Part shown: positions 62,429 to 64,000 of the stretch, piece after piece
How positions within the stretch are numbered: the first letter of the stretch is position 1
Layout: every line of letters begins with the position of its first letter
Assembly (NCBI RefSeq): GCF_004353825.1
Contig: NZ_SMNA01000001.1
Coordinates: 496,001 to 560,000, forward strand
Length of the DNA stretch: 64,000 nt
Source of the DNA: Occultella glacieicola
Lineage (GTDB): Bacteria > Actinomycetota > Actinomycetes > Actinomycetales > Beutenbergiaceae
Reading direction: 5' to 3'
The notes under the pieces: model-generated
Told to the model about the DNA's origin: nothing
Databases searched by the model: none
What the model saw: only the letters and a program-made list of their open reading frames with translations
Position numbers and translations under genes: made by a program

Positions 62429-62608
62429 TCAGGCGTTCTCGTCGCCGACCTTGCCGTCCGCGAAGTCGCGCCCCTGCTGCACCTTGTCCGCGTACTTGCC
62501 ACCGGTCTTGTCGTTGGCGAAGTCCGCGGCCCGGTCGAGGGCACTGTCCGTCCGTTCCTCGTTGCCGAGCAACTCGCCGGCCTTCTTCTTCAACTCGTCG
62601 AAACCCAT
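62429..62608 (-). CDS. MT0933-like antitoxin-type small protein
   Basis: 59 residues. The RBS decides the start: GGGAGGG is directly against ATG 62614 but 6 nt before ATG 62608, so translation begins MGFDELKKKAGELLG. A charged helix followed by DKTGGKYADKVQQGRDFADGK matches the MT0933 (Rv0909) antitoxin family. No toxin gene is adjacent, as is common for this family, so the antitoxin label is only by family name. Confidence 0.8.
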   Translation of the reverse strand: MGFDELKKKAGELLGNEERTDSALDRAADFANDKTGGKYADKVQQGRDFADGKVGDENA

Positions 62609-62759
62609 CTGCATCCCTCCCGAACCCGAGCCGGGCGAGTGCCCGGTCAGGGCTGAGTCTCGACCAGGGCGGCTCGATCCGCACCCCGGATCGAGGCTCA
62701 GGCTCGTGGTCGCCGGGTCCGGCGGACGGGACGACGTCGGTGTCCAGAGGCCACGGCAC

Positions 62760-63974
62760 TCACCTCCCCGCGAGTACCAGCCGGCTGGCCGAGCCGGAAC
62801 CCGGGTCCGCCACGGCGGTCAGGGCGAGGGCGGTCCCGGCGATGCCCGAGAGCAGCCCGGGGCCGTCGTGGTCGCCCTGGTCGGGCGCGGCGGCTGGGCT
62901 GGCACAGCGGGCCGCGAGGGCCTCATGCGCCAGGCCGACGGCGGCGCTGCGGTGGTCGGCGGAGTCCAGTTGGGTGGCGGTCGAGGCGAGCAGGTCCCAG
63001 GTTCCCGCGGCACCGTGGCCGAGGCTCAGGTCGGTGGTGGCGCGTGCGGCCCCGGTGGCCGAGCGTACGGCGGCATGCACGTCGGCGAGCAGGTTGTTCC
63101 TGGGGGTCGCCAGGGCCAGACCCTGATCGCGCAGGGCGAGCAGGCGCAGCCTGGTGAGCCCGATGCCGATGGGGCCGGTCCACGGGTCGTCGGAGGGTCG
63201 GCCATCGAGTGGCGCCGAGGCGATGCCGGGTCCCGCCCCGGGGGTGGCCCAGGTGTCGGTTTCGGGCACGAACCAGGCCGACTCCCAACGCAGTCCGCCG
63301 TCGATGAGGGGGACCAGGTCCGTCGCGAGCACCGGATAGCGGGCGGCCGCCTCGGCCAGGGCGAGGATGACGCCCGAGGTTCCGTGGACGAGCCCGGTCC
63401 GGGCGCGACCGTCGGTGCCGGGCCAACACACGGTCCCGGATGGCAGGCGCCGGGCGCCGGCGCGCAGGCGCCGGGTGGCGGCCGAGACGGCGGTGGCGGG
63501 AGCGTCACAGACGAGCAACCCGAGCAGGTGACCGGCCGTGCCGGAGGCGAGATCGTGCCGCCCCGGCGCGGTCCGCACGGCGCCCGCGGCACGGCGGGCC
63601 CGCTGCCGCAGCTCGGGGGAGTCGGCAGCCGTGCCGACCCGGTGGGCGGCGCAGGCAACACCGGCCAGCCCGGTGAGCAGGCCCGGGGCGCCGTCCCGGA
63701 TGGCACCTTCCAGGGCTCGGGTCGAGGCATCCACCGCGAGGTCGAGCAGGTCGGACCGGTCGAGCGTGCGGCCCAGCTCGGCCAGGGCCCAGGCGGTCCC
63801 GGCGTCGCCGTCGTCGACGGCGTGGGGTGAGGCGCCGCGGACGGTCCGGCCCCGTGGCGAGGACCGGTGCCAGGTGGGTCCGGAGCCGCCGCGCACCACA
63901 CCGGCGTGCAGTTCGTCGGCGAGACCCCGCGCGTACGCCAGGAGGTCCGGTTCGTCGAGCGCGGTCACAGCCAT
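62760..63974 (-). CDS. LanC-like cyclase-fold protein lacking zinc cysteines
   Basis: 404 residues from ATG 63974 (GTG 63968 possible). Six or seven Gly-rich repeats of the LanC toroid are visible: GLLTGLAG, GTAGHLLG, GLVHGTSG, GPIGIG, GHGAAG, GLLSGIAG, spaced about 45-70 residues. In active cyclases zinc is held by Cys in WCxG and Cys-His in CHG. Here these read PWTGPIGIG and SLGHGAAG: both Cys are absent, only the His remains. So it is either a non-catalytic relative or one with another metal site. It is stand-alone, not fused to a LanM dehydratase. Its partners would be upstream, beyond the window. Confidence 0.82.
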   Translation of the reverse strand: MAVTALDEPDLLAYARGLADELHAGVVRGGSGPTWHRSSPRGRTVRGASPHAVDDGDAGTAWALAELGRTLDRSDLLDLAVDASTRALEGAIRDGAPGLLTGLAGVACAAHRVGTAADSPELRQRARRAAGAVRTAPGRHDLASGTAGHLLGLLVCDAPATAVSAATRRLRAGARRLPSGTVCWPGTDGRARTGLVHGTSGVILALAEAAARYPVLATDLVPLIDGGLRWESAWFVPETDTWATPGAGPGIASAPLDGRPSDDPWTGPIGIGLTRLRLLALRDQGLALATPRNNLLADVHAAVRSATGAARATTDLSLGHGAAGTWDLLASTATQLDSADHRSAAVGLAHEALAARCASPAAAPDQGDHDGPGLLSGIAGTALALTAVADPGSGSASRLVLAGR

Positions 63975-64000
63975 GGTTCGTCCCAATCTGCGCTGTCGCG
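63965..64000 (-). CDS. 3' end of an unknown upstream gene
   Basis: A minus-strand frame enters from the window edge and reads RDSADWDEPWL then stop (TGA 63967-63965), overlapping the LanC-like start (ATG by 10 bp, GTG 63968 by 4 bp, as GTGA). The overlap and the protein-like end suggest a co-transcribed gene, but 11 residues cannot be assigned. Confidence 0.4.
   Translation of the reverse strand, partial: RDSADWDEPWL

Follow-up and report, generated by a model that had tools for sequence, protein, structure and literature searches.

Genes of the locus

The window, meaning the whole stretch of 64,000 nucleotides of Occultella glacieicola (Ruaniaceae) that was analysed, ends within a pair of overlapping genes. 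The sequence was therefore followed beyond position 64,000, and the additional features are numbered in the frame of the window, with the coordinates of the extended locus (L002) in brackets.

62429-62614, downstream of the LanC-like gene and in the window: small MT0933-like antitoxin gene
62760..63974, minus strand: LanC-fold protein P0001, 404 aa, without two zinc cysteines
63015..63020, minus strand: codons of Gly319-His320, the second zinc-cysteine and the zinc-histidine positions (equivalents of NisC C330 and H331, by alignment)
63177..63179, minus strand: codon of Thr266, the first zinc-cysteine position (equivalent of NisC C284, by alignment)
63384..63386, minus strand: codon of His197, the conserved toroid-motif histidine, retained (by alignment)
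63965..64000, minus strand: 3' end, inside the window, of the HopA1/LanY-like gene P0002 (310 aa)
63965-64897 (L002:1466-2398), minus strand: whole HopA1/LanY-like gene
65153-66802 (L002:2654-4303), plus strand: S8 subtilase
66799-67410 (L002:4300-4911), plus strand: ECF-type sigma factor
67407-67910 (L002:4908-5411), plus strand: CpdR-like small protein, a name given on a weak sub-threshold match (E 0.063)
67937-70528 (L002:5438-8029), plus strand: TPR-CHAT protein

The last four genes form a cassette that is divergent from the HopA1-LanC pair, and its S8 subtilase bears the Asp, His, and Ser motifs. The intergenic stretch between the divergent genes (64898-65152; L002:2399-2653) contains an inverted repeat, CTGATAC...GTATCAG, a possible operator that is conserved in all four Occultella genomes (L002, L024, L025, and L031). 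Further downstream genes in the window are a DUF779 gene and an aldehyde dehydrogenase gene, the latter named by eye. Two of the Occultella loci carry urease-operon-like genes, likewise assigned by eye, between the LanC-like and the antitoxin-like genes (L025:12293-16829 and L031:11168-15704); this gene set was not seen in the O. glacieicola genome or in O. gossypii.

The LanC-like protein

P0001 has the (alpha,alpha)6 toroid fold of LanC proteins, and a protein of this fold that has lost its zinc cysteines, as the preliminary description had proposed, is confirmed at the level of sequence. By alignment with relatives the two zinc-cysteine positions are taken by Thr266 and Gly319, while His320 remains, and no other cysteine, which that description had named as a possible refuter, stands at the aligned zinc positions. 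The same Thr and Gly are found in all four Occultella LanC-like proteins, and the third ligand position, His in the others, is Arg in O. gossypii. The toroid residue His197, which we take to be the equivalent of NisC H212, is retained. The family profile aligns its WCHG and CHG motifs with the cysteine motifs of GCR2, LanCL1, and LicM2, and P0001 is without the cysteines of these motifs; it also differs from the LanCL/GCR2 proteins in being encoded together with a LanY-like gene in a bacterial operon. The complete Cys, Cys, His set is present in each of the 16 readable LanC proteins encoded beside the same cassette in 17 relatives, the LanC of the remaining one (L130) being interrupted by a contig end and left out of this count. 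Three other cysteines (Cys108, Cys156, and Cys183), which lie outside the aligned zinc positions, are kept in all four Occultella proteins.

The HopA1/LanY-like partner

The HopA1/LanY-like gene overlaps the LanC-like start by 10 nt, and the overlap is also retained in O. gossypii, O. aeris, and a further Occultella genome (G010); the probable operon with an overlapping upstream frame, suspected from the window, is supported and turns out to include a RiPP-type partner. P0002 belongs to the HopA1 family (PF17914, E 5.4e-13). The best structural match to its predicted model (pLDDT 82.8) is LxmY (9dk3_B) of the lexapeptide dehydratase LxmKY (E 1.7e-13, TM 0.59, rmsd 7.0), followed by the Pseudomonas effector entries 4rsx and 4rsw, so that family and model together assign to P0002 a HopA1/LanY fold.

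In the class V enzyme CaoY the K219A replacement abolished lyase activity, R187A almost eliminated activity, R229Q left the lyase inefficient, and Y236 is conserved (PMC9486802). In the alignment the equivalents of K219 and Y236 are absent from all five Ruaniaceae HopA1-like proteins: the lysine is replaced by Glu in O. glacieicola, by Asp in the three other Occultella, and by Arg in G003, a genome of another genus, and the tyrosine by Thr, Ile, or His. The R187 equivalent is retained in four of the five and the R229 equivalent in all. A pattern search agreed with the alignment, since the K...R.D...Y run was missing in these five proteins and found in all nine other HopA1 proteins tried. All 17 cassette-linked HopA1 relatives carry the R, K, R, and Y lyase residues. 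With a lyase-like partner that has itself lost catalytic residues, a working dehydratase partnership, one of the roles offered in the preliminary description for a cyclase relative that had kept its fold, is unlikely, and among those roles that of a scaffold fits best.

Distribution and selection in Ruaniaceae

Among 24 genomes of the family the LanC-like gene was found in four, all of them Occultella, and the HopA1-like gene in five, the fifth being G003. The completeness of this genome is 89%; it carries the HopA1-like gene together with the cassette, and the LanC-like gene was absent from both its locus and the genome search. In the four Occultella genomes both reading frames are intact.

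Pairwise dN/dS was estimated by the Nei-Gojobori method with our own script for the four Occultella genomes, in all of which the residues have been lost, and was 0.17-0.31 for the LanC-like and 0.14-0.34 for the HopA1-like gene. Purifying selection thus acts on the pair; it is weaker than on the cassette (S8 0.06-0.12, sigma 0.05-0.12, CpdR-like 0-0.03, CHAT 0.09-0.13) and resembles that on some ordinary neighbours (DUF779 0.17-0.30, DUF1801 0.26-0.41). Of the other neighbours the HTH gene has 0.10-0.18 and the aldehyde dehydrogenase gene 0.07 in one pair. Because the values lie above the 0-0.13 of the cassette genes, some relaxation is possible. Synonymous divergence of O. glacieicola from the other Occultella is 0.51-0.62 in the LanC-like and HopA1-like genes and 0.41-0.48 in the DUF1801 gene, and about half of the LanC/HopA1 value, 0.21-0.33, in the S8, sigma, CpdR-like, and CHAT genes; the raised dS hints at recombination or replacement in this stretch.

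Intact relatives

A HopA1 alignment search of 186 genomes of the family of Knoellia aerolata gave 20 matches, and the neighbourhoods of 19 fetched loci and of L026 were examined. In 17 genomes (L026 and L130-L145) the S8 gene stands divergent from a row of genes for a Nal1-like protein, an APH kinase, HopA1, and LanC, so that the divergent placement of the HopA1-LanC pair beside S8 is common to these genomes and Ruaniaceae. The sigma, CpdR-like, and CHAT genes follow behind S8 in 16 of the 17, the contig of L132 ending inside S8; several of these loci are near duplicates, and they do not represent 17 independent events. All 17 APH proteins have the H/D/N/D catalytic residues, and the Knoellia-family relatives accordingly combine a LanK, a LanY, and a zinc LanC with catalytic residues in place. 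Of the other matches L146 and L147 encode an S8 protein with a tail, APH, HopA1, and LanC, and L148 has HopA1 in a different context.

A wider search of 386 genomes of the order resulted in 19 matches, namely, the five Ruaniaceae, eight known loci, and six new ones. Among the latter L173 has Nal1-APH-HopA1-LanC with no cassette adjoining, L174, L175, and L176 have S8 with tail, APH, HopA1, and LanC, L177 has HopA1 and APH, and L178 shows no S8-tail, Nal1, APH, HopA1, or LanC gene. At the level of the class the CpdR-like protein had a match in 89 of 394 genomes. Forty other CpdR-like loci were fetched, including L101, where gene calling missed the CpdR-like gene; S8 and CHAT genes lie nearby in 29 of them, and in none was HopA1, LanC, APH, or Nal1 detected within about seven genes on either side. 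It follows that the cassette can do without the pair, and among the loci read the addition of HopA1 and LanC to such S8/ECF sigma/CpdR-like/CHAT cassettes of Actinobacteria was met in Ruaniaceae and Knoellia-family loci alone.

In a PADLOC search (E up to 0.01) the O. glacieicola S8 protein weakly matched IetS (0.0038) and the S8-tail protein of L175 matched a subtilase model (8.7e-28) and IetS (1e-5); LanC, HopA1, CpdR-like, CHAT, Nal1, and APH had no match at that threshold. In plasmids the S8 protein had no tblastn match at E 1e-10.

The five Ruaniaceae proteins group in the HopA1 tree as one clade (100/99) apart from the Nal1-linked clade (85/89), and the four Occultella proteins of the LanC tree form a single clade on a branch of 1.68; both trees are midpoint-rooted, with no outside root and with long branches that raised warnings. 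Since these catalytic residues are present in the remaining HopA1 and LanC sequences that were checked, loss of these residues in Ruaniaceae would be the simpler account, a direction that we infer by parsimony.

Cysteine-rich protease tails

The Nal1-like proteins keep the trypsin-type His and Ser motifs (NFHV or NYHV; GDSGSV) and carry a tail with 7-9 cysteines and a conserved end (consensus YWAGYLAALEEV). The tail contains units of the form [S/T]R-x(1-6)-C with a non-Cys spacer, which were counted over the stretch that starts 12 residues ahead of the first tail cysteine and ends at the last one. In 15 of 18 Nal1-type tails the number of units equals the number of cysteines, and in the other three the ratios are 7/8, 6/9, and 8/9; in L133 and L134 TK replaces TR in some units. 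Each tail has 6-9 units at a shuffled expectation of 0.5-1.1, and in none of the 18 was the observed number matched by any of 2000 shuffles. A row of (methyl)lanthionines would require one Ser/Thr per cysteine together with a kinase, a lyase, and a zinc cyclase, as found here, and the tail may therefore be modified. The five S8-type tails are also rich in cysteine, and their unit numbers are 0 in L146 and L147, 2 in L174, and 4 in L175 and L176; the pairing with Ser/Thr-Arg is thus weak or missing there, and the stapled reading is weaker for them.

A repeat also occurs in S8 proteins. A linker before the subtilase domain is made of a tandem short unit in L026, L130, L131, and L133-L137 (L138-L145 lay outside the scope of the script), as well as in 12 of 18 other cassettes (L069-L072, L076, L080-L082, L085, L086, L092, and L104), the remaining six having no linker repeat. 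The unit is near-perfect within most proteins and differs across species (GYGDGI, GWGQGV, NPYGRT, NPFHAS, and HPITGG, among others), as if it were homogenised and replaced, and in Ruaniaceae the repeat is degenerate (PYTIPH). The Nal1-type tail of L136 (L136:6892-8400) has GWGDGI units resembling the adjacent S8 linker. The linker, which contains Ser/Thr in Ruaniaceae, was considered as a substrate of the pair and dropped, because cassettes without HopA1 and LanC also carry linker Ser/Thr.

Interpretation

Probably, in the Knoellia-type relatives a class Vb-type lanthionine machinery staples protease tails. The LanK would phosphorylate Ser/Thr of the tail, the LanY would eliminate the phosphate to give Dha/Dhb, and the zinc LanC would add the tail cysteines, so that several (methyl)lanthionines would staple the tail. 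The Ruaniaceae locus is without genes for the kinase and the substrate, and other residues stand in place of the Lys and Tyr of the lyase and of the cysteines of the zinc site. The Occultella LanC-like and HopA1-like proteins are accordingly read as a pseudoenzyme pair from a class Vb-type module, retained as non-catalytic partners of the protease cassette, to which we give a probability of roughly 0.55. Selection keeps both folds, which are translationally coupled, and the pair is probably non-catalytic and tied to the adjacent protease cassette. At the weakest step of the proposal, argued from position and selection, the two proteins would probably act as binding or regulatory partners of the subtilase/ECF/CHAT cassette. 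Against this stand a partnership argued from position in two lineages, the tail operon of L173 with no cassette adjoining, the 40 CpdR-like loci devoid of the module, the possible relaxation seen in dN/dS, and the three conserved cysteines, which could serve another chemistry.

Another explanation is a slowly decaying relic, in which both genes became functionless after the loss of substrate and kinase and persist for want of time. The lost catalytic residues, the excess of dN/dS over the cassette genes, and the missing LanC-like gene of the 89% complete G003 agree with it. Nevertheless, the frames are intact in all four Occultella at pairwise dS up to 0.62, dN/dS has stayed at 0.14-0.34 after the shared loss, and the 10-nt overlap has been retained in O. 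gossypii, O. aeris, and G010, which makes a relic unlikely.

It is quite improbable that P0001 is an active metal-independent cyclase, comparable to the class III LanKC domain and served by a kinase and a substrate encoded elsewhere. The general statement of the preliminary description that LanC and LanM cyclases need Cys-Cys-His zinc is not the whole story, as class III cyclase domains form rings without the zinc ligands (PMC10604976). ThurKC, a three-domain synthetase with a LanC fold that, like P0001, lacks the Cys-Cys-His set, has Ser, Phe, and Asp at the ligand positions, of which Phe770 and Asp771 matter for cyclization (PMC10604976). P0001 is a stand-alone protein with Thr, Gly, and His/Arg there, so that Gly and His/Arg replace the two important residues, and its third position varies within Occultella. 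The toroid His is retained, and a LanK profile gave APH-family matches elsewhere in the five Ruaniaceae genomes, all of them weak (best 34.5 bits in O. glacieicola and 40.6 in G003). On the other hand, the partner lyase is without Lys and Tyr, and dehydro residues are therefore probably not made. A Nal1-like substrate elsewhere was also considered: such a protein is encoded in each of the four Occultella genomes, with no match in the G003 genome, and was rejected, having no cysteine in any of the four; the S8 proteins of the four Occultella have none either.

An altered pair performing new chemistry through other residues of the old pockets, for example Cys108, Cys156, and Cys183, which are kept throughout Occultella under the selection described, is very doubtful, as no co-encoded substrate was recognised. 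Finally, the original proposal of a RiPP cluster that the window just touches, its genes for a precursor, a dehydratase, a protease, and a transporter lying upstream, is hardly credible and found no support in the extended sequence, where the upstream gene is indeed of the LanY family, but is followed by S8, sigma, CpdR-like, and CHAT genes, with no APH kinase or transporter gene recognised in the locus including the extension beyond 64,000 and no convincing precursor, the 39-aa TTG frame with 4 Cys just upstream of the HopA1-like gene being a doubtful candidate that we do not accept, because in the three other Occultella the same DNA belongs to reading frames of 102, 101, and 80 aa whose ends differ.

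Relation to known systems and significance

Returning to the reading of a retained pseudoenzyme pair, the closest known system is class Vb. Pei et al. (2022) reportedly described class Vb lanthipeptide synthesis for SmoA with LanK, LanY, and LanC. Two other sources likewise define class Vb by LanK, LanY, and LanC (PMC12291118; PMC12328550). The Knoellia-type relatives resemble class Vb in a separate APH-type kinase, a HopA1-type lyase, and a zinc LanC, and they differ in the substrate: class Vb has a short precursor, while the presumed substrate is a trypsin-like protein of 438-502 aa with a Cys-rich tail in the Knoellia-type loci and a subtilase of 584-720 aa with a Cys-rich tail in the related operons. 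Occultella departs further, in that its locus has neither a kinase nor a substrate gene and the two proteins that are left lack catalytic residues. HopA1 and phosphotransferase genes beside precursor genes are listed in the decRiPPter paper (PMC7794033). In the literature, the titles and abstract openings among the matches listed mention neither a lanthionine module acting on a protease tail nor a HopA1-LanC pair beside a CHAT cassette.

The known products of lanthionine enzymes are small peptides. Tentatively, and with a little less than an even chance, we suggest that in Actinobacteria class V-type enzymes staple the tails of full-length proteases with up to nine (methyl)lanthionines, often within a protease/CHAT system, and that in Occultella these enzymes have become non-catalytic regulators, remaining with the cassette once substrate and kinase had gone. 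If true, lanthionine chemistry would reach large proteins as well and would be connected with CHAT/subtilase systems. Occultella would then offer a natural example of a pathway whose lyase and cyclase turned into pseudoenzymes together, and with its pair the idea that the LanY and LanC folds can act without catalysis could be tested directly.
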